64,000 nt of DNA, from assembly GCA_013373595.1 (NCBI GenBank), contig JABXHO010000040.1, forward strand, positions 62,001 to 126,000. Direction: 5' to 3'. Position 1 is the first letter of the stretch; the number at the start of each line of letters is the position of its first letter. Made by a program: the position numbers and the translations under genes. This DNA comes from Flavobacteriales bacterium. Its GTDB lineage: Bacteria; Bacteroidota; Bacteroidia; Flavobacteriales_D; Crocinitomicaceae. Below are positions 6,625 to 64,000 of this stretch, in pieces. A model generated the notes under the pieces. The model was not told where the DNA came from. It worked only from the letters and a program-made list of their open reading frames with translations, and made no database searches.

Positions 6625-9099
6625 TTACCGAACGTTTATCAACATGCGTTCACGTTTGTGAATTGACCTTGATTCGCTGTACAAGTTAAGCACTGATAAA
6701 TTGTAATGGTCTTTCATTTGAATCATCGAAATCTGCGGAATTCCTATAGCTCCAAACTTCTGTTTTACTTCAGAAGCAGTGAACCCAAGATAAATCCTGT
6801 CGCAATTAAGTTCTTCAGCACGTAATCGAGTGCGATACAAAATTTGCTTGTAGATATCATGGGTTTTCAAATAGTTGTAGTCGAAACCTAGCAAAATACC
6901 GTTGTAGTACTTTTCATTGATGTGACTAAACGTGATCCCCACAACTTTGTCTGATCCGTCATCTGTTTTAAGTGTATACTCGATTACTTCGAAACTCGGA
7001 TCATTCAGCATTTCCGTGAATAACTTGATGGGTTGTGCAAAGCTATTTACTTCGAAACTCGCATTTTTCACCTGAGAATAAAGTTCATACCATCGATCAA
7101 GCTCACTTTTATCGTATTCTGTTACGATGCGCGTTTTGAAAGCATCGTGATGCTTGAATATACCCGTTTTGAGGTATTTACGCCTCTTAGCGGGAATCGA
7201 TTCCATGTACTTGGCAAACGGGTTCGACTGAATACCATAAACGATATTTGTATCGGGAAGATTCACTTTCAAGAAACCTTGATCCATGAAGAAATCAGTT
7301 AATTCATCGTCATCGGAGTGGAAGTCCCTGAGCCAAACAGCATTTGCATCTGCTTGCTCTTGAATTTCCCAAATTTGATCAAGTAGAGTGGTAAGAGCAG
7401 TGGTCCAATCTGTCCGATTTCGATCAATGTATAGGTGATTTCCTTCCGTAAGGAGTGATCCCATTACCAAGGTTTTTGAGCATAAGTAGTAATTGTCTTC
7501 CTTTCGTAGTTCTTCAATTTGATTCGAAACACCTGAGGCAGAGAGCATATCGTCTTTAACCATTGCAAGTGTGAAGAATGTAGCGGCGACAGCTTTTCCA
7601 GTAGTATCCTTTAAAATCAAGTAGTGGAAATCCCAGTTGTTTTCTACAGCATCATTAGAAGAGAAGGTGCGCTCCAACAGTCGAATTCCGGCCCAATTCA
7701 TCGTGATTTGGTTCGACATGAGAGAATTCCAAAGTGACTCATCAATTTCGTCAATAGACTGTTTATGAATGACTTCAAATCCATTTTTAGAGCGTTGAAT
7801 CACAGGTTGTACTTCCTGTTTCTTTAGTTGGAAGTGAGGAACGTGTTTGAAAGCACGATAGATATCGCTGAGTGTTCGATTTTCGTCTTCTAGTGCCCGC
7901 GGGAAATGATACGCGAGAATGTTGCAAAGCTTCTCAATATCTTCCATTGTATGGTGCAGTGTAATGGTGAATCGCAGACCTGTACAGGTTTCAGGAACAG
8001 CTGGGAATACACCTAAATTTACGAAACATCCATCGTTGATCACACGCTGTACCATGTTGTATCCGACCCTAACTAATCCTAGTCCAACATAAACAATTGG
8101 AGAGTCAACATTGGACACAACAGGTAAATCATGTACTTCTTTTAGCAGGTAATGACAGTAGCGCAAACGATCTTTGAGTTTTCGCTGTCGTTCGTATATT
8201 TCTTCGGATAAATGAATACGCGCCGAGGCTATTCCTGCTCCGATTACTGGAATTTGATGTCCTCCTGAGAAGATAAAACTACCTCCACAATTTTTTACTT
8301 TATGATAAAGGTCTTTGTCTTTGAAAAAGAAGGCACCACCACCAGCACCGTACGCTTTGTTGAGAGAGGTTGCCAGAATCATTTTGGGATGGAAGTCCAC
8401 TTGACTCAAAATAACTCCCGTTCCATTCTTTCCAGCAATACTCATTCCATGAGCATCATCCGCGTAAAGATGAAAATTGTGGTGGCGATCCAGCATTTCG
8501 ACCAATTCCTTCATCGGTGCAAAATCACCGTACATGCTGTACACGCCATCAATCATGTACCATATTCGGTTGTACTGATGCTTCAAACTCATGATTTTCT
8601 TTTCAAGTTCGTCTAGTTTGTTGTGACGAACGATTTGAACATCAATGCCTTGAGCTTTCATTTTTGTAACTGCGTCCTGCACACTTGCGTGAACTTGTTG
8701 GTCGAGAATAATTAGATCTCCAGGGTCCACAACCACAGGAATAACGGCATGGTGTCCTAAAGAAACAGATGTTGATGTCACGACGTGCGCATCAAACATT
8801 TCCTCTAATAGTGACTCCCATTCAGTGTACAGGGTGTTCGAGAGATAGCTTCGAGAAGATGAAAATTGAACGCCATATCGTTGTATGGCATCAATAGCAC
8901 CTTGCTTCAACCGATCATCCATTTCGAGCCCTAAGTAAGAGCAGGAGCCGAAATTGATGAGCTCTTGACCGCGTACATGAACCGTCCTGCCGTTATAGGT
9001 GTAATCCTCCGTGCGAAGTTGGAGAACGTTACGAGATACACCCTTGCTAATGATCTCGTTCACCGTATTTAGCTTCTGATTCGATTTGTGTTTTGTCAT
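6625..9099 (-). CDS. AONS/CqsA-type PLP-dependent acyl-CoA condensing enzyme fused to FemAB/BioF2-like GNAT
   Basis: The protein has 824 residues. Residues about 25-405 are a class II alpha-oxoamine synthase fold: FGSCSYLGL at 50-58, His137 in QQVHAS, Asp214 and His217 in YADDAHG, and the PLP lysine Lys248 in SLNKAYG. These enzymes condense an acyl-CoA with an amino acid (8-amino-7-oxononanoate, serine palmitoyl, cysteate acyl and CqsA/LqsA autoinducer synthases). Residues about 430-800 form a second part with two GNAT-like halves as in BioF2/FemAB proteins; PAKRRKYLKTG is a typical stretch. Single AONS enzymes have about 400 residues, so this is a true fusion. No biotin genes are nearby. Product options are an alpha-hydroxyketone-type signal or an N-acylated amino lipid; neither is proven. 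Confidence 0.8.
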   Translation of the reverse strand: MTKHKSNQKLNTVNEIISKGVSRNVLQLRTEDYTYNGRTVHVRGQELINFGSCSYLGLEMDDRLKQGAIDAIQRYGVQFSSSRSYLSNTLYTEWESLLEEMFDAHVVTSTSVSLGHHAVIPVVVDPGDLIILDQQVHASVQDAVTKMKAQGIDVQIVRHNKLDELEKKIMSLKHQYNRIWYMIDGVYSMYGDFAPMKELVEMLDRHHNFHLYADDAHGMSIAGKNGTGVILSQVDFHPKMILATSLNKAYGAGGGAFFFKDKDLYHKVKNCGGSFIFSGGHQIPVIGAGIASARIHLSEEIYERQRKLKDRLRYCHYLLKEVHDLPVVSNVDSPIVYVGLGLVRVGYNMVQRVINDGCFVNLGVFPAVPETCTGLRFTITLHHTMEDIEKLCNILAYHFPRALEDENRTLSDIYRAFKHVPHFQLKKQEVQPVIQRSKNGFEVIHKQSIDEIDESLWNSLMSNQITMNWAGIRLLERTFSSNDAVENNWDFHYLILKDTTGKAVAATFFTLAMVKDDMLSASGVSNQIEELRKEDNYYLCSKTLVMGSLLTEGNHLYIDRNRTDWTTALTTLLDQIWEIQEQADANAVWLRDFHSDDDELTDFFMDQGFLKVNLPDTNIVYGIQSNPFAKYMESIPAKRRKYLKTGIFKHHDAFKTRIVTEYDKSELDRWYELYSQVKNASFEVNSFAQPIKLFTEMLNDPSFEVIEYTLKTDDGSDKVVGITFSHINEKYYNGILLGFDYNYLKTHDIYKQILYRTRLRAEELNCDRIYLGFTASEVKQKFGAIGIPQISMIQMKDHYNLSVLNLYSESRSIHKRERMLINVR

Positions 9100-54002: not shown

Positions 54003-54215
54003 GGGATATTAGTTGGTAAGATGATAGGAAGTTGAACAACTTGTTAAACCATATTAATTCTTTGATTTTGAGTGTTTTGATGCTAATTTTACGCTTGAAT
54101 TCACGAACGGATATGACGCTATCAGCGGCTAACCAAGACGTATACGATTATATTCGAGACGTGACTCACTTCGTAGCGGTGACACGTTATTCAATATCAG
54201 CAATTGATTGATGGT

Positions 54216-55662: not shown

Positions 55663-56640
55663 CTAGGCAATTGCCTTTAAGACCACATTTCCTTTCTTGT
55701 GACCTTTATCGATGTATAGGTGAGCTTCTGCTATTTGCTCTAACGGATAACTTCGGTCGATCACTCCTTTCAGGTTTCCTGCTTCAATTATTTCGAGAAG
55801 TATCCCAAGTAAACGCTTGGTTTCTTTTGTTGATAGCGTTCCTGTTGCAGAGAACTTTGCCTTTTTCTTTCCGAAAATTGAAGTCATCATCATGGCTCCC
55901 AACAACCGCATTCCAAGAACAGGGGAGATGTACTTTCCGTTTTCGGTTAACGCGCCGCAACATTCTCTAAATGAGCGTACCCCAACGGTATCATAAATGA
56001 GGTCGTAGCTGTTTTTATTGGTGGTGAAATCGTACTTGGTGTAGTCAATTACTTCGTCACAACCCAATTCCCATTCGAGTTCCGAATTCTTGCTGCTACA
56101 AACTCCGGTTACGATTGCGCCAAAATGCTTTGCAATTTGAACTGCTGCCGTACCCAACGAACCAGATGCTCCATTGATCAAGACTTTTTGACCTGGTTTC
56201 ATTTTTCCGAGGTTGAGCAAGAAGTTGAGGGAAGTGATCCCACCATCACACATACCAGCGGCTTCGTCATAACTCATATTTTCTGGTAGATGTGTTACAA
56301 TTCCATCTTCTGGAACGGTCACATATTCGGCATAGGTTCCCATCGTCTCGATGTTCTCTCCAAAAACATTATCTCCTGTTTTGAATTGAGTCACTTCGGT
56401 TCCCACAGATTCAATTACTCCAGCAAAGCCTGTTCCCCAGATTGGGTTTTTGGGTTTTCTCAATCCCAACATTAAGCGCCCGATGTATGGTTTCCCTGTG
56501 CGCATCATGGTGTCTGCTTTGGTTACTGAAGAGGCGTGAATTTTGATTAAGATCTCGTTTGGCTTGGGTAATGGCTTTGCTACGTTATCTACTTTAAAAA
56601 CTTCTGGTGATCCGTAGGCGGTTGTGATAATTGCTTTCAT
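55663..56640 (-). CDS. MDR-superfamily NAD(P)H-dependent reductase (quinone oxidoreductase-like)
   Basis: From ATG 56640 the product has 325 residues; the open frame extends to 56811 but those 57 residues are unlike the family. It has the zinc-independent MDR layout: GSPEVFKVDNVAKPLPKPNE, a GTGFAGVIESVG segment, and the cofactor fold VLINGASGSLGTAAVQIAK. It reduces quinones or enones with NADPH. Its neighbours, a hydrolase and a DinB protein, may belong to the same detoxification set. Confidence 0.88.
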   Translation of the reverse strand: MKAIITTAYGSPEVFKVDNVAKPLPKPNEILIKIHASSVTKADTMMRTGKPYIGRLMLGLRKPKNPIWGTGFAGVIESVGTEVTQFKTGDNVFGENIETMGTYAEYVTVPEDGIVTHLPENMSYDEAAGMCDGGITSLNFLLNLGKMKPGQKVLINGASGSLGTAAVQIAKHFGAIVTGVCSSKNSELEWELGCDEVIDYTKYDFTTNKNSYDLIYDTVGVRSFRECCGALTENGKYISPVLGMRLLGAMMMTSIFGKKKAKFSATGTLSTKETKRLLGILLEIIEAGNLKGVIDRSYPLEQIAEAHLYIDKGHKKGNVVLKAIA

Positions 56641-56922
56641 GTTTCTTAACTTTTGATGATTACTAGGACAAAAGTGCAGACAAGGAACTCCACGAAGGTT
56701 CGCAATCTCAAGTATGGGTTCTGAATTACATATCCGAACCAAAAAGCATGAAAGCTTGATTTGTATAAGTCGTTTTGAGTAGGGTTTTGCCCTTCTGATC
56801 ATCCATTCCATTGCTTTGGAGTCGTGAAGAATGATTTGGTTTATGACGAGAATTCCAGAAGGGAATTAGTATAAAAGAGAGGGAATGTTTGGATTTTAGC
56901 TTGGTTACGGTGTTAGTAACTT

Positions 56923-57369
56923 TCATCTTCCAGAGTCTTTGTACTTGTATACATCCATTAGATTAATATCGAGTTGTACTGTCTCATATTCATCTTGGCG
57001 ACTACGAACATAGGTATGCACATAATTATTGGGGAGGGGAGAGAGCCATTTCCAATCTCCCTTAATTATTTCACCTGTACTTTTTTCAATCAAATATTTA
57101 CGCCCATTACATTCTATCAAAACGAAGTATTCCTCGTCCTCAAACAAATTTGAATTACACCCACTACCACTATCAAGGTACATGACAACTTCGTTGGTCG
57201 ATTGGTCGTTTAGAGTAACGACTAGTTTTTTGCCATGGTCAACCAAAAAAGGATGTTTGTTTGTCTTGAGAACTTTTATGTCGCTTGCCGTTATGTTCTC
57301 CGTTCCGGTGTTGCAGCTACCGATCACTAGAGCGAAAAAGATTATTGCTATGGCTACTCTGACTTTCAT
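56923..57369 (-). CDS. Small lipoprotein of unknown function
   Basis: The 148-residue protein has a lipobox (VIGSC, Cys19). The mature part contains FLVDHGKKLVVTLND, a VMYLDSGSGCNSN stretch and STGEIIKGDWKWLSPLPNN. No family is recognised. It lies at the left end of a run of same-strand orphan genes separated by palindromic spacers. Confidence 0.5.
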   Translation of the reverse strand: MKVRVAIAIIFFALVIGSCNTGTENITASDIKVLKTNKHPFLVDHGKKLVVTLNDQSTNEVVMYLDSGSGCNSNLFEDEEYFVLIECNGRKYLIEKSTGEIIKGDWKWLSPLPNNYVHTYVRSRQDEYETVQLDINLMDVYKYKDSGR

Positions 57370-57376
57370 TGACTAA

Positions 57377-57438
57377 CGCTTCTCGAATATAGGGAATAAA
57401 AGAAATAAAGGATGAGGGAATGTTACAGTTATTATTTC
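57377..57438. repeat. Intergenic repeat copy 2, attC-like end
   Basis: The 30 bases at 57377-57406 are identical to 54691-54720. The minus-strand reading has CTCGAAATA early and TATTCGAG late, forming an imperfect stem, and ends AAGCGTTAG next to the lipoprotein start. It resembles the R' end of an attC site, though weaker than those at 58048 to 59967. Confidence 0.5.
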
Positions 57439-57509
57439 GAGCCGAATAACCTATCATATTAGGTTCCTTTACGACATGAAATACAGCTACAAATTTGAGG
57501 TAGCAGTAT

Positions 57510-58031
57510 CTAGTTTGTCATCAGTATTATTCTGTATTCTCCATTTACCTTACGCATGATAAATTTAAAAGCGTCATCAAGAATAAAGTCCATTCGATTA
57601 CGGGGTTTATGATATGCTCCATCGAAAAATATGTCTCCTTCCTCGATTTCGTAAAATTTTAATCCTCCCAATGTGCTTATTTCCTCTCCAGACCGATAAA
57701 ACTCTTTATCAGCAAGAGTCTTCGTGTCAATGAACTGTTGTTCAAAATTTTTCTTGTAATAGGCAAAGTTTAACGAGTCATTTTTTATGCTTATTTGACA
57801 TAGCATTTTAATTTGACGTTCCATGTCAGTTTTGGCAACAATCGTGTCTTGAGCTCTCAAATAAAGAACTACGCTATCGTCAATTGAATTGTAGTACGTA
57901 TCACAATCATGCTCAATTATTGCTTTGATTACGTTCAGTGCAAATTCTCTTTCTTCACTACTAACTTCAGCCGTCTCTTGAGCAAAGGACATAACAGGAA
58001 AGAGGAATAATATGGATACTATTTTTTTCAT
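57510..58031 (-). CDS. Small secreted protein of unknown function
   Basis: From ATG 58031 the product has 173 residues with a signal peptide ending MSFAQ. The open frame continues to 58130 but only into the palindromic spacer. The mature part (SSEEREFALNVIKAIIEHDC; FAYYKKNFEQQFIDTKTLAD) resembles small Bacteroidota NTF2-like or DUF secreted proteins, without certainty. It is part of the orphan-gene array. Confidence 0.5.
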   Translation of the reverse strand: MKKIVSILFLFPVMSFAQETAEVSSEEREFALNVIKAIIEHDCDTYYNSIDDSVVLYLRAQDTIVAKTDMERQIKMLCQISIKNDSLNFAYYKKNFEQQFIDTKTLADKEFYRSGEEISTLGGLKFYEIEEGDIFFDGAYHKPRNRMDFILDDAFKFIMRKVNGEYRIILMTN

Positions 58032-58047
58032 TTTGGGTTTTATTACT

Positions 58048-58128
58048 GCTAACGGTTTGGTGCTAGGTTTAGTGTCGTTTCTTGAATATAACACTTTTGC
58101 GACATGAAGTGTAGGTTGTGTTATGCGC
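58048..58128 (-). repeat. attC-like imperfect palindrome
   Basis: On the minus strand, directly downstream of the gene at 58151, an end GCGCATAAC is followed by an arm with CTACACTTCATGTCG. A loop follows, then the facing arm CGACACTAAACCTAG and an end GTTAGC. The arms pair imperfectly over about 18 bases. Size (81 bases), ends and position after a stop codon match integron attC sites in layout, though the sequence is not the classical RYYYAAC/GTTRRRY exactly. Confidence 0.5.
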
Positions 58129-58150
58129 ATTCATTTATATCACGGAATAC

Positions 58151-59194
58151 CTAGTAGTAGGTGTAAACGAAAGTGAATATCTCTGATAGGTGACCATCAA
58201 AATAGCGTTCTTCGCTGAGGATATGATTGTTCTCGTTTCGAATGTAGACATCCCTGATTTCTTTTACGTGATTTGAGTGAAAATAATAAAGTGAACTTAC
58301 TGATTGTGGATTCTTGTTGACTGCAACCACTTCGTGAATTAGGTCATTTTTATAGTGATAATTAACCTCTGTTATAACCTCCTGATCGCGCACAGCACAT
58401 GCATGTTTCAAAAATCCTTTAACATCATAAGAATATTCGTCCTTTAGAATACCGTTGGACTTAGAGTAGAGTTTACCGTCTTCATTGTATTTGAAGTGGC
58501 TAGAATCATACCTGTCATCTATAGAATTTTTGCGATACACGCGGACAATGCTATCCAGTATTTCACCAGTATAGTAATATTTTGAAACAGGCTGCACTTT
58601 ACTATTTCCTGAGAAATGCTGATGAGTTACAAGATTTCCGCTGGAGTCATATTCGAATATTGCTTTTTGGCTATATCCTATAAATAGGTCTGAACGCGTT
58701 TGTGCATTATACACAAGCTTTTCAATCAAATTGTTATTCGAATCATAGGTGAATTGCTTGCATAGCAGAGCAGTGGTGTCTCCGTTTCTTACTGTTATAT
58801 CAAGAGTTTGTGTTAAATTCTTGTTTTCATCATATTCGTATTCTATAAATGAGTTATAATCAGGTGATGTGTATTCCGTAGAAATTTTTAATGAGCCATC
58901 CCATTTGGTGAAAGTCCGAGAGTATCGTTTGTTTCTTTTAAAACCAATTTTAACAGTTTCATTACCTTCAGAGTTATACAAATGAATGGCTAATGTGTCC
59001 GTTCTTTCACCATTTGTCAAATCAGTTTTTAAGTGTATCATTTTCTTTATTCCAGTCGTATTTTCATTGTTAAACCCCTGCAAATCATTGTATGGTTTAG
59101 ATTCTACTTTGACATCAAAATTGAAACTCTGTCCGTTCGAAACGAAAACGGTTGAAGCAACAACAAGAAAACAGATATATTTCAATATACACAT
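58151..59194 (-). CDS. Secreted YD-repeat-like protein
   Basis: From ATG 59194 the product has 347 residues with a signal peptide ending near SNGQS; a TTG at 59215 is rejected. The mature part is a series of short strands of the RHS/YD type: FIEYEYDENKNLTQTL, FTYDSNNNLIEKLVYN, FEYDSSGNLVTHQH and KYNEDGKLYSKSNG. Such repeats build a shell-like beta sheet in exported proteins. No toxin domain is visible at the C-terminus. It lies in the orphan-gene array. Confidence 0.65.
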   Translation of the reverse strand: MCILKYICFLVVASTVFVSNGQSFNFDVKVESKPYNDLQGFNNENTTGIKKMIHLKTDLTNGERTDTLAIHLYNSEGNETVKIGFKRNKRYSRTFTKWDGSLKISTEYTSPDYNSFIEYEYDENKNLTQTLDITVRNGDTTALLCKQFTYDSNNNLIEKLVYNAQTRSDLFIGYSQKAIFEYDSSGNLVTHQHFSGNSKVQPVSKYYYTGEILDSIVRVYRKNSIDDRYDSSHFKYNEDGKLYSKSNGILKDEYSYDVKGFLKHACAVRDQEVITEVNYHYKNDLIHEVVAVNKNPQSVSSLYYFHSNHVKEIRDVYIRNENNHILSEERYFDGHLSEIFTFVYTYY

Positions 59195-59282
59195 AGAGTT
59201 AAAGATAAGAATCAATGATAGAGTGTTGCTCTCATTTTAGTCCGTTGTATTGATTTACTATTCTACGAATGCTGGGCACATT

Positions 59283-59418
59283 GCGCATAACGGCTGGCAG
59301 CTAGAAAGACGTACGGATCTTAAACCACCAGTTTTATTTTAAAGTTAAGAATGATTTTTTAACCGAGGTTGAAATTACGAAGCGTAAGTTCCGTATGCTT
59401 TTTAGCTGCTGTTATGAG
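59283..59418 (-). repeat. attC-like long imperfect palindrome
   Basis: The strongest palindrome in the window: on the minus strand CATAAC is followed by AGCAGCTAAAAAGCATACGG, then about 62 bases of loop, then CCGTACGTCTTTCTAGCTGC, then GTTATGC. The arms pair across about 27 positions with few mismatches and a bulge. It begins eight bases after the stop of the gene at 59426, as an attC site would. Confidence 0.6.
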
Positions 59419-59425
59419 TATTCAT

Positions 59426-59857
59426 TTAAAGCCATGATTCAACGATGCGATGCATATGTCTGATAAAACTTCTTCCTTCCAAAAAGAATGCTAAGGTCCA
59501 GACTAATGCCATAAAAGCAAATAGGAAAGAACCTATGAAAAACATATTTTCACCCTTCAGCCCTTTGTACGCTAAAACGGAAATTACGATAACAGCAAAA
59601 GAAATTACAAACCAGAACAAATTACTAGGAACTATTTCTAGTTTCAAGTCTCCTTTTTTGCTATCGTACTGTCCTTTTACTTTTACATAACCGATTACCA
59701 GTCCATTTATTAGAGCCAAGTTCGTATAGAATCCAACTAGACTGCCATTCTTTGCTGTCCCTTCAAAGGTTTTCGAAAGATGATTATCTGTTCTAAGAGA
59801 AGAAAGTATTAGGTTGACTTTTTCGGGATGATTATCTATTTGGAATGTTCTTTTCAC
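59426..59857 (-). CDS. Small membrane protein, orphan
   Basis: The 143-residue protein starts at GTG 59857 (no ATG available). The N-terminal 55 residues are soluble, and three hydrophobic segments follow (about 42-58, 80-96, 105-125). It ends RSFIRHMHRIVESWL. No family is recognised. It is flanked on both sides by attC-like palindromes. Confidence 0.5.
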   Translation of the reverse strand: MKRTFQIDNHPEKVNLILSSLRTDNHLSKTFEGTAKNGSLVGFYTNLALINGLVIGYVKVKGQYDSKKGDLKLEIVPSNLFWFVISFAVIVISVLAYKGLKGENMFFIGSFLFAFMALVWTLAFFLEGRSFIRHMHRIVESWL

Positions 59858-59884
59858 GCTTTTTTTTTGAGTAATCGTCTATTA

Positions 59885-59967
59885 CGCATAACGGTTCTGC
59901 GGTAGGAAAAGTGGCGCTTATTCTCGAGTATTATCGTGCGCCATTTTTTTTACCGCATGTTAGTAGC
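59885..59967 (-). repeat. attC-like imperfect palindrome
   Basis: On the minus strand it reads GCTACTAAC, then ATGCGGTA and GGCGC arms, then facing arms GCGCC and TACCGCA, then GTTATGCG. The arms TGCGGTA/TACCGCA and TGGCGC/GCGCCA pair perfectly, with an A-rich/T-rich internal bulge between them. It lies between the genes at 59426 and 60011. Confidence 0.6.
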
Positions 59968-60010
59968 ATTTGGTATCTATGCATTGGTGTCAACGTGAGG
60001 CAATGATAGT

Positions 60011-60241
60011 TTAGGAAGCACGTGTCATTGTCTGTGATTTTGAATTCTTTGCAGTGTATTCTTTACCTAGTTTAGCTGCATGACGATTGTTGTCACGATT
60101 AATTTTTACGTCGGTTTCGCATTGAAGTTTAGTCATCCGATAATCTTGGTATTTATCAAGAGCTTTTCTTACTTGAACAACGATGATTCCTGTAACACTT
60201 GAACCGGCAATAGACCCCAAAATAATATTAACTAACTCCAT
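60011..60241 (-). CDS. Very small membrane-anchored protein
   Basis: The 76-residue protein has one N-terminal membrane helix (about 5-25, NIILGSIAGSSVTGIIVVQV) followed by a basic, polar tail (KINRDNNRHAAKLGKEY). No family is recognised. Its order relative to the palindromes matches a cassette-type gene. Confidence 0.45.
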   Translation of the reverse strand: MELVNIILGSIAGSSVTGIIVVQVRKALDKYQDYRMTKLQCETDVKINRDNNRHAAKLGKEYTAKNSKSQTMTRAS

Positions 60242-60418
60242 AACTTAAACATTAAAACATGACTATAAACCATTCATACAAATCGCACGGTCGACTTGAA
60301 GGATTACAATCTTTATTTTAACATCTCGAAATGAGTCGTTCTACTATTTTAAACTTTTATTCCACCCACCGCAGAGTGGTAAAGGTGTACTTAGATTTTA
60401 ATTTGAGTTGATTGAAAT

Positions 60419-60595
60419 TTATCTATATAAAGTACGCCCCATAATGACATCCGCATCTTTACCTTTGATTGGAAACATTCGGTCTTCACCCTCAGCTAAA
60501 AACTGTTCAGTCTTGACTCTTGCTTGTCCAATTGGCATAATATAAATGCCTAGCATTATATCGATGTGGTGCAGTCTGTTGCACCAAGTTGACAT
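60419..60595 (-). CDS. 58-residue hypothetical protein
   Basis: An ATG at 60593-60595 opens a frame to a TAA at 60419-60421. The product contains MLGIYIMPIGQARVKTEQF, a GEDRMFPIKGKDADVIM stretch and ends GRTLYR. Base composition at codon positions looks coding rather than random. No ribosome-binding site is obvious. No family is recognised, and the call is tentative. Confidence 0.4.
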   Translation of the reverse strand: MSTWCNRLHHIDIMLGIYIMPIGQARVKTEQFLAEGEDRMFPIKGKDADVIMGRTLYR

Positions 60596-60998
60596 TATCG
60601 AATAAATGTACGAATATTTTTTTACTTAAAAAAGTATGGAGTGAGTAGATTACAAAGTTTTCATTTGCCGTTTATTCTCAATTTGCTCTATATAATGGTT
60701 GAAGGGTGTAATCTTGGTATTTAGGTTGTTGTGGGATTGGTTGCTACTAACTCCCTTATACCATGCACTAAGTTAATACATATATCGCCAAATCATAACT
60801 ATACGTGCATAGCCTGTTGCTGAAACGAAAACGATTGATCCCATTCAAAAAGAACATTCCTCAAAATCTCATGCATCATTAGAACGACTTTTTTCACTTG
60901 TATTACCATTCGATAACGGAATAGGAGTAGGGGCAGATTGAAATACTTTTACTAAATTGTATTATCACTGACAGCAGAACTTACCCTAACAAGTAAGC
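60596..60998. promoter_or_regulatory. 403-base intergenic region before the TPR kinase gene
   Basis: This AT-rich region between divergent genes has no convincing open frame. The last 100 bases should hold the promoter of the kinase operon; TTGAAATAC...TATTAT near 60937-60966 is a possible but unverified signal. Confidence 0.3.
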
Positions 60999-62927
60999 AT
61001 GAGACCACTAAATTTTTTCGCAAGTTTAATTTTTGTTGTGTTCGTGACGTTCCCTGCATTGCTTCAAAGCTATGAAGATAGTCTGCTTCGCACTCTTGAC
61101 GAGAATCCAACAAACAAAGAAAGCTTGTTTCTTTTGGGAGAATATTTGGTTCAACGAAACCCCGAACAAGCAGAGCTATATGCGAATCGTCTTAGGAAGT
61201 TGACAACCGGCACAGCTGATAGCAGCGAGTTATCGCGAATGAACAACATCTACGCAGCAAGTCATAGGTGGCAGGGAAACTACGCCACTTCACTCGCGTA
61301 TTATGAGAAGAACTATGCGTATTACTCAAGGAATAATGATCACGAAAACGTGGCAGAATCTGCTGCAAAACTCGGAACAATCAATCTTTACATTGGAAAC
61401 AATATCGTTGCGCAGACATATCTTCTGGAAAGTGATCAGATCTTTAAAAAGATGGGAACGCCACGGCAAAAGGCAAGTAGTAAATTACGTCTCGCCAATT
61501 TTCATTTAGGCATACATCAACTCGATGAAGGGAAAGAGCTGTACGAAGAGGCTTTGAAAGAATATAAGGCGATAAACGATAGTTCGGGGATTGCTACTGT
61601 TAGCATTAATTTAGGTTCTGTACTGACGGATTTGGGACAATTCGAAATGGCCGAAACGCATTTATTGAACTCATTGGCGTACTGCGAGGTATTTCCTACA
61701 AAACGTGAATTGGGATTTGCGCATGATTTCCTGGGCTTACTCCGTCAAGCTCAAGGTCGATTGGATGAAGCATATCAAGAACACTTGAAAGCACTCGATA
61801 TACGTTTGAAATTAAGCAGCACATACAATTTGTGCGAATCAAGGTTGAGTGTGGGGAAAATACTGATCAAACTCGGAGAGTATAGAGCAGCGATCGCACA
61901 GCTCAAACAAGTGTTTACCTATGAAGAACATCATTCTCTAAATCAAGAAAGCTTAGCACATGAACTCCTTTCCGAAGCGTATGAAAAAATGGGAGATTAT
62001 GCCTTGGCTCTACAAGAGCAAAAGTTGTTCAAAATGATAAGTGACAGTATTTTGAATACGTCTTCCTTGGAAGTGATCGCTCAAAAAGAAGCGCAATATA
62101 AAAAGAAAGAGCAGGATGCACGAATCAAAATTTTAAGTCAAGAAAAGGAACTAGCGGAGCAAAAAGCATTTCGATCGAAAGTAGTTACATACGGCACAAT
62201 CACCATTGCAATCGTCTTTTTATCGCTATTGTTTTTCGTATTCTATTTATACCTCAAGGTGAAAAGGCAAAAAAATGAGTTGTTCAAATCCCTGGAGGAA
62301 AAAAGGGTACTGCTGAAAGAAATACACCACCGCGTTAAAAATAACCTTCAAATCGTATCTTCTTTGTTGAGCATTCAAAAGCGACAAGTTGAAGACCCCG
62401 TGGCGATGGGTGCATTGGAAGAAAGTAAAAATCGAGTACGATCAATTGCCCTCATTCATCAAAACTTGTATCAGGATAAAGACCTGAAAGAGATTGATGT
62501 AAAGTTTTTTATTGAGAAACTCACTCAAGATTTAGTCGATGCATACAAGGGAAAGCACAGGAACGTATCGATTGAGTTCGATGTGGACGAGGTAAAATTG
62601 GATATCGATCGTATTATTCCTATTGGATTTATTGTTAATGAATTGATTACCAATGTGCTCAAGTATGCGTTCGACATGGATCAACTCGGTATTTTGAAGC
62701 TGAAAGTGAAAAAAGAGCCTGACTGGCTTCGATTAGAAGTTACCGATAATGGAGTAGGGCTGCCCGAATCTTTTTCATTAGATACCTGCAAAAGTTTAGG
62801 TTACAAGCTTGTACGATTATTCTCAAATAAATTGAAGGCCGAATTAACTGTGGAATCGACAAAAGCCATAAATGGAACGAAGGTTCAACTTTTAGTTCCC
62901 TATAAAACGAAGAAATGGAAGAAGTAA
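60999..62927 (+). CDS. TPR-repeat sensor histidine kinase (HisKA_2 type)
   Basis: The 642-residue protein has a signal/anchor at the start and about six TPR-like helical repeats (40-350). A coiled coil (365-395), a membrane helix (about 397-420) and a HisKA_2 domain with EIHHRVKNNLQIVSSLLSIQ follow; His444, before RVKNN, is the likely phosphorylation site. The C-terminal ATPase has NELITNVLKYAF and DNGVGLPE. It senses an envelope cue through the repeats and phosphorylates the regulator encoded next, whose start lies 13 bases inside this gene. Confidence 0.9.
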   Translation: MRPLNFFASLIFVVFVTFPALLQSYEDSLLRTLDENPTNKESLFLLGEYLVQRNPEQAELYANRLRKLTTGTADSSELSRMNNIYAASHRWQGNYATSLAYYEKNYAYYSRNNDHENVAESAAKLGTINLYIGNNIVAQTYLLESDQIFKKMGTPRQKASSKLRLANFHLGIHQLDEGKELYEEALKEYKAINDSSGIATVSINLGSVLTDLGQFEMAETHLLNSLAYCEVFPTKRELGFAHDFLGLLRQAQGRLDEAYQEHLKALDIRLKLSSTYNLCESRLSVGKILIKLGEYRAAIAQLKQVFTYEEHHSLNQESLAHELLSEAYEKMGDYALALQEQKLFKMISDSILNTSSLEVIAQKEAQYKKKEQDARIKILSQEKELAEQKAFRSKVVTYGTITIAIVFLSLLFFVFYLYLKVKRQKNELFKSLEEKRVLLKEIHHRVKNNLQIVSSLLSIQKRQVEDPVAMGALEESKNRVRSIALIHQNLYQDKDLKEIDVKFFIEKLTQDLVDAYKGKHRNVSIEFDVDEVKLDIDRIIPIGFIVNELITNVLKYAFDMDQLGILKLKVKKEPDWLRLEVTDNGVGLPESFSLDTCKSLGYKLVRLFSNKLKAELTVESTKAINGTKVQLLVPYKTKKWKK

Positions 62928-63538: not shown

Positions 63539-63726
63539 TGTTTCTATCTATTCATGGGGGAGTTGAAAATCATACTTTTAGGTGATGTGAGTAGGAAGTC
63601 ATTGTCGTTAATTTGTTAACAAAGCCACTTCGATTTGTAGAGCGCTCAAAATGGGAGTGGAACAGCGACTGCCGAAAAGCTAATGAACAGAGTAGGCACT
63701 TTTAACTAACTAAACACAGTTCAAAC

Positions 63727-64000
63727 ATGAAAGTTCGGAAAACAATTCTGAGTATGGTTATTGGAATACTCATAACATGCTCATCAACAAGCATGGGACA
63801 AACCTTCAACAAAGAATACACAATCTCCAATTTTTACAGAGATAATGTCGTCGCCAAATCTACAATTGAAATATATAAAAATCCCTTACCCAAAAAGATC
63901 ATTACAGTTGGATCAATTAAAGGAACAAATACCATATTGGAAGATATTGTAATTACGCATACGGATGTTAGTGGAAACATCACTTGGACCAAACGTTATG
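63727..64000 (+). CDS. Secreted protein, 3' end off the window
   Basis: An ATG at 63727 opens a frame to the right edge (91 codons, no stop). A signal peptide is followed by a cut near SMGQTF. Then comes an NFYRDNVVAKSTIEIY stretch and a VSGNITWTKRY turn of the kind seen in Bacteroidota propeller proteins. It is 188 bases after the response regulator gene and may be its target; this is by proximity only. Confidence 0.7.
   Translation, partial: MKVRKTILSMVIGILITCSSTSMGQTFNKEYTISNFYRDNVVAKSTIEIYKNPLPKKIITVGSIKGTNTILEDIVITHTDVSGNITWTKRY

Follow-up and report, generated by a model that had tools for sequence, protein, structure and literature searches.

A CALIN-like cassette array in a Flavobacteriales genome and its probable place in an undescribed integron lineage of Bacteroidota

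Integrons and related systems

The closest described systems are the integrons, chromosomal or of class 1, with the integrase IntI, the attachment site attI, and the cassette sites attC. Integrons are reported to be nearly absent from Bacteroidetes, and the single complete one reported with IntegronFinder 2 is that of Salinibacter ruber (PMC9024848). The Bacteroidota arrays described here share with integrons the one-gene cassettes in one orientation, the imperfect palindromes that end in TAAC and GTTA and fold more stably on the bottom strand, a tyrosine recombinase gene at one end of the array, and the junction G^TTA. They differ in four features: the recombinase lacks the additional domain of IntI; the spacer is asymmetric by 3–4 nt; the R box is extended (N3 followed by CAAT) compared with the integron ends RYYYAAC/GTTRRRY; and the array and the recombinase gene share their reading direction.

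The window—the whole stretch of 64 kb that was analyzed, C75:62001–126000 of a draft genome of 4.69 Mb in 179 contigs, 99.9% complete—features an array that can also be compared with CALINs, which are defined by at least two neighboring attC sites with no integrase close by. Three intact, that is, untruncated, sites lie within 1.9 kb, and an integrase was found neither in the window nor in the genome. Unlike in a CALIN, the sites of the window depart from the canonical shape of attC, and the enzyme lacking here would not be an IntI. With a probability of roughly 0.86, the interval is read here as a CALIN-like remnant or satellite array of an undescribed integron lineage of Bacteroidota, for which recombination of a folded strand is inferred. 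Homology, structure, polarity, linkage to a recombinase, an attI-like junction, and the sharing of single cassettes are directly observed, mostly at other loci rather than in the window itself. A literature search, with preprints and most subscription journals outside its scope, found no description of this system.

Architecture of the array

The array is flanked by an alcohol-dehydrogenase-like gene on the minus strand (55663–56640) and by a TPR histidine kinase gene on the plus strand (60999–62927). Between both lie five small genes, all on the minus strand. They encode proteins of 76 aa (60011–60241), 143 aa with a GTG start (59426–59857), 354 aa as listed with a TTG start (58151–59215), 173 aa with a signal-peptide-like start (57510–58031), and 148 aa with a lipoprotein-like start (56923–57369), the latter being the probable last cassette gene. 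The true start of the 354-aa gene likely is a later ATG. This gene carries an RHS_repeat match, the sole match of the window cassette genes against Pfam and PADLOC; the other four belong to no known family.

The sites were identified with a covariance model, R1, built from 18 sites of the window and relatives—among them 58040–58131 and 59879–59970—and run unfiltered over the whole 64 kb. At E < 0.01, it returned three array sites on the minus strand and one degenerate match on the plus strand. The three sites score 48.8–79 bits. The palindromes and orphan genes stand where the first-pass annotation had placed them, all on the minus strand. In addition, a scan for ends and arms gave 2 matches in the window compared with 0 in four shuffles of the full 64 kb. 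The degenerate plus-strand match (54112–54199, 30 bits) has the orientation opposite to the array.

Each site lies on the minus strand downstream of its gene. The site at 59879–59970, downstream of the gene 60011–60241, is intact with TAAC..GTTA at 59889–59962, scores 73.5 bits, and features a spacer of 5/9, that is, 1/5; its fold as single-stranded DNA beats that of shuffles (z −3.6). The site at 59278–59422, downstream of the gene 59426–59857, is likewise intact, with TAAC..GTTA at 59288–59414 and a long terminal loop. It scores 48.8 bits though absent from the training set of R1, its bottom strand folded as single-stranded DNA beats shuffles (z −4.0), and copies elsewhere are 85–95% identical. 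The site at 58040–58131, downstream of the gene 58151–59215, has its TAAC..GTTA core from 58050 on the plus strand and scores 79.1 bits (E 6e-16); the sequence is clearly homologous, but the stem is decayed and folds no better than shuffles (z about 0). The clear arms previously proposed for three palindromes therefore hold for 59879–59970 and 59278–59422 and fail for 58040–58131. A fourth palindrome, described as weaker, proved real: the site at 57377–57438, downstream of the gene 57510–58031, is truncated, with the left arm and loop present—matching those of intact sites (L060, L152, L145, and others) at 84–87%—and the right arm gone.

Downstream of the last gene, a repeat of ~90 nt on the minus strand (56815–56901) is 86–89% identical to C156:10170–10260 and C35:28753–28843 of the same genome, and both copies stand near array sites. 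It may represent another degenerate kind of site or else mark the boundary of the array, which remains uncertain. Outside the array, an Rfam DUF805b RNA (RF02914) scores above the gathering threshold at 63662–63698, immediately upstream of an ORF at 63727.

Structure of the sites

On the coding strand, the sites roughly follow the consensus RATG-N3-MTAAC-A-stem-loop-stem-NAACC-GTTAT-N3-YAAT, R′ of the family being GTTA-N4-YAAT. With the right arm offset by 4 nt, pairing between the arms reaches 79.6%, and all other registers give just 13–35%; hence, most sites have a spacer of 1/5 or 5/9 nt. This register test is not circular since only end motifs served to select the pairs (21 found, 0 in a shuffle of all loci), and it was relied on instead of the covariation figures of R1, which are partly circular because most seeds had been chosen by pairing. 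Early arm scans that penalized spacer asymmetry missed most sites. By the same measurement, the spacers of class 1 sites are 5/6 for aadA1, 5/6 for aadB, and 4/5 for a GNAT cassette. The integron feature of a symmetric unpaired central spacer with RYYYAAC/GTTRRRY ends is not met.

The bottom strand forms the more stable hairpin in 130 of 144 sites, a bias not seen in control segments. The integron feature of a favored bottom-strand hairpin is met, in agreement with the strand preference already reported for attC (PMC8946536). Because of the differences from canonical attC, models such as those of HattCI and IntegronFinder could miss these sites. A search of Rfam gave no relevant family.

A genuine CALIN derived from canonical integrons—ordinary attCs whose classical IntI was later lost or acts from elsewhere—would account for the attC-like layout, the bottom-strand bias, and the cassette polarity, and CALINs are common (PMC8618304). 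Such an origin is very unlikely given that the spacer offset is +3/+4 in 112 of 133 sites of this family compared with 0/+1 in class 1 sites, that R1 leaves aadA1, aadB, and arr-2 all unmatched, that related arrays adjoin a recombinase without the additional domain, and that no genome of the genus encodes an IntI above the cut-off.

Distribution and polarity of the site family

When 56640–60999 was searched by blast against 40 genomes, most matches fell on the palindromes and hardly any on the intervening genes; the palindromes recur at many places in the same genome and in sister species. A gene order conserved in related species, which would have refuted the initial proposal of a cassette array, was looked for and not found. 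The search for more sites suggested by the first-pass annotation yielded 44 in the genome of the window at E ≤ 0.01 with R1, and sister species hold more. These 44 sites have a single orientation per contig, with the exception of the degenerate match on C75. Across 147 sites at 38 loci, neighboring sites are co-oriented in 103 of 104 pairs at a median spacing of 706 bp, and the lone discordant pair involves the degenerate match at window position 54112. Among the ORFs of at least 70 aa in intersite intervals below 1600 bp, 62 of 70 are co-oriented with the site and have their stop codon beside it. This arrangement of one-orientation sites and co-oriented ORFs is a cassette organization; as in integrons, each cassette combines a single gene with a terminal site, and the cassettes share one orientation.

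The palindromic nature of the sites, their scattering over many contigs, and their position directly after stop codons would also suit interspersed palindromic repeats (REP- or MITE-like) or transcription terminators without any role in recombination. Repeats of this kind hardly explain why whole arrays are uniformly oriented, why sites lie downstream of one recombinase family and on its own strand, why the R box is conserved with invariant ends and the stems covary, why the similarity between arrays stops at site boundaries, or why the blaVEB junction falls at G^TTA, and this explanation is regarded as very unlikely.

Across the genus, the presence of an integrase and the number of R1 sites are only loosely linked, which is partly because R1 is tuned to the site type of the genome of the window. 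Five integrase-positive sister genomes gave no R1 match.

The associated recombinase

Most sister genomes encode a XerA-like tyrosine recombinase. The array-linked members of this family are about 285–400 aa long with all catalytic residues invariant, and many feature an extra N-terminal domain that is predicted to be β-rich at a pLDDT of about 90. Their best NCBIfam match is NF040815 (XerA) at 217–229 bits, some lying above and others below its cut-off of 220 bits, and the closest solved structures are XerA (5hxy, the best) and Vibrio IntI. In contrast to XerA-type recombinases, they often carry the extra N-terminal domain and are accompanied by attI-like junctions and cassette arrays. The integron integrase model TIGR02249 matches them in two pieces and below its cut-off, with the stretch of the additional domain missing; in an alignment to IntI1, about 42 residues are absent. 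The integron feature of an integrase with the IntI-specific additional domain is not met. Under a strict definition of the integron, which requires IntI with this domain, the system is therefore not a member; it would work like an integron, the anatomy being established and the chemistry inferred.

Where sequence continues past the integrase gene, all 18 R1 matches at E < 2 are located downstream of the gene and share its strand. A scan of 42 loci—41 titled or sampled as Bacteroidota and 1 titled Firmicutes—that also admitted the canonical spacings located 34 sites downstream of the integrase and on its strand, 32 of them asymmetric; a further 4 lie on the opposite strand and 2 upstream. About half of these loci had no site at the scan threshold, and several integrase-positive loci showed none detectable within 10–18 kb. 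Named hosts with sites are Flavobacterium aciduliphilum, Flavobacterium enshiense, and Algibacter onchidii. Contigs of draft genomes often break off within 0.1–1.4 kb of the end of the recombinase gene, as would be expected of a repeat array at this position. On a Chryseobacterium plasmid (NZ_CP041688, L300:5980–8509), downstream of a member of the integrase family come genes on the same strand and, at 8384–8509, an attC-like site whose spacer is 1/5.

Homologues of the recombinase (E ≤ 1e-60) occur in 117 of 396 sampled Bacteroidota genomes (30%), not all of which need be array integrases, and arrays adjoin the family at many loci. In AU tests, neither the union of its clades I and II (p 0.08) nor their grouping with IntI (p 0.055) was rejected. 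Whether clades I and II and IntI share a common origin remains open, with the deep phylogeny unresolved.

A search of the genome of the window, which the first-pass annotation had also proposed, found no cognate recombinase; its description of an integron-cassette-like array without integrase is supported, the array being CALIN-like. It is inferred that the integrase was lost or lies within an assembly gap. Three candidates were rejected: the tyrosine recombinase on C13 is XerD and the one on C123 a 431-aa integrase, neither of the cognate family, and a tandem tyrosine recombinase pair on C160 (L003) is not the array integrase either. C160 is a short contig, where an RHS-core-like ORF neighbors the tandem genes.

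The presence of XerD and the lack of a dedicated integrase among the genes found in this genome would be compatible with Xer-dependent modules, similar to pdif modules, that are moved by the housekeeping XerCD. Sites recognized in this manner, that is, dif-like sites, are short, whereas the sites found here are hairpins of about 70–130 nt; moreover, they are uniformly oriented and elsewhere adjoin a different recombinase. Movement by XerCD is thus hardly credible.

The attI-like junction

Downstream of the integrase stop codon, a conserved junction ending in GTTA can be recognized at 31 loci. In clade I, it reads TATAARYRA followed by GTTA and lies mostly 50–140 bp past the integrase stop. In clade II, a near-perfect palindrome is followed by AMTT and G^TTA, 43–67 bp past the stop; the letters of the palindrome differ between species, but palindromy is retained. 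Past the GTTA, the sequences are unrelated except for the R-box extension. Since the junction patterns were derived from the same sequences, they establish conservation and not function. The integron feature of an attI adjoining the integrase gene is met at these other loci, by sequence only, and is absent from the window.

Proposed mechanism and significance

A cassette of the proposed lineage would consist of one small gene and its site. The bottom strand, which is the plus strand of the window, is predicted to fold into a hairpin, the ends of which would form the R box TAAC/GTTA, parted from the stem by an asymmetric spacer of 1/5 or, equivalently, 5/9 nt. A dedicated XerA-like recombinase, as encoded in relatives, would bind the R boxes of the folded bottom strand and exchange one strand at G^TTA, and the attI-like junction, roughly 40–180 bp after the recombinase gene, would receive cassettes in one orientation. 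Recombination of a folded single strand and the exact cleavage point are inferences, no recombination assay having been carried out.

Searches that demand the additional domain of IntI would overlook this system. If active, it would represent a large unexplored cassette reservoir and would show that cassettes can be recombined by a simpler enzyme at hairpins of another kind.

Cassette exchange and resistance genes

A complete cassette of 690 bp is common to two species at 86% identity, with similarity ending at the bounding sites, and a second case is similar. Such single cassettes are common to otherwise unrelated arrays. As suspected at the outset, the array of the window belongs to an apparently unrecognized cassette family. 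The flanks of the array are not conserved in the genus.

Resistance plasmids lend independent, if likewise indirect, support to cassette mobility. A fragment of this integrase family immediately precedes the gene blaVEB-3 (NZ_CP084417, L303:4133–5754). Compared with blaVEB-1 in a class 1 integron (CP110729, L304:2441–2585), the shared sequence begins at G^TTAGCGG. The attC of the blaVEB-1 cassette is known to be unusually long (133 bp), with a larger central spacer and a single extrahelical base, and to be recombined poorly by IntI1 (PMC3518468). Its 127-nt core is of the same length class as the sites described here, and its spacer of 5/8 is of the asymmetric type, although it resides in class 1 integrons. 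It is 80% identical to a Bacteroidota site over 55 nt, with 17 of 17 positions matching in the R″ flank, a resemblance not found for the attCs of aadA1, aadB, and arr-2. It is also the only class 1 attC matched by R1, if weakly (22 bits, E 0.055). As judged by these similarities alone, the atypical attC of blaVEB-1 belongs to the asymmetric site type of Bacteroidota.

The mobile resistance genes blaVEB and tet(X3) both seem to have moved by way of this gene-capture system. Activity of the system would account for the odd veb1 attC as well as for the regular presence of "xerD" beside tet(X3). That the integron machinery of Bacteroidota arose from XerA-like recombinases independently of IntI, perhaps twice (clades I and II), and served as the chromosomal source of the blaVEB and tet(X3) cassettes is possible but held only tentatively, at less than even odds. 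Were the independent origin true, capture of cassettes through a folded strand would not need the additional domain of IntI.

The context ISCR2–xerD–tet(X3) is already known (PMC8635130); interpreting this xerD as a cassette-integrase fragment is, as far as the literature searched shows, new. The gene tet(X3) lies after an integrase-family fragment called tpnF or xerD (FJ012881, L302:4028–6180; NZ_CP104735, L301). On its 3′ side, the left half-site TAACAAGCAGTTTTGCAATAGTGGGG is present, with the right half missing, and its start follows GTGGATATATACGCCATTTGGCGTATAGCCACTT and GTTA, consistent with a clade II attI.
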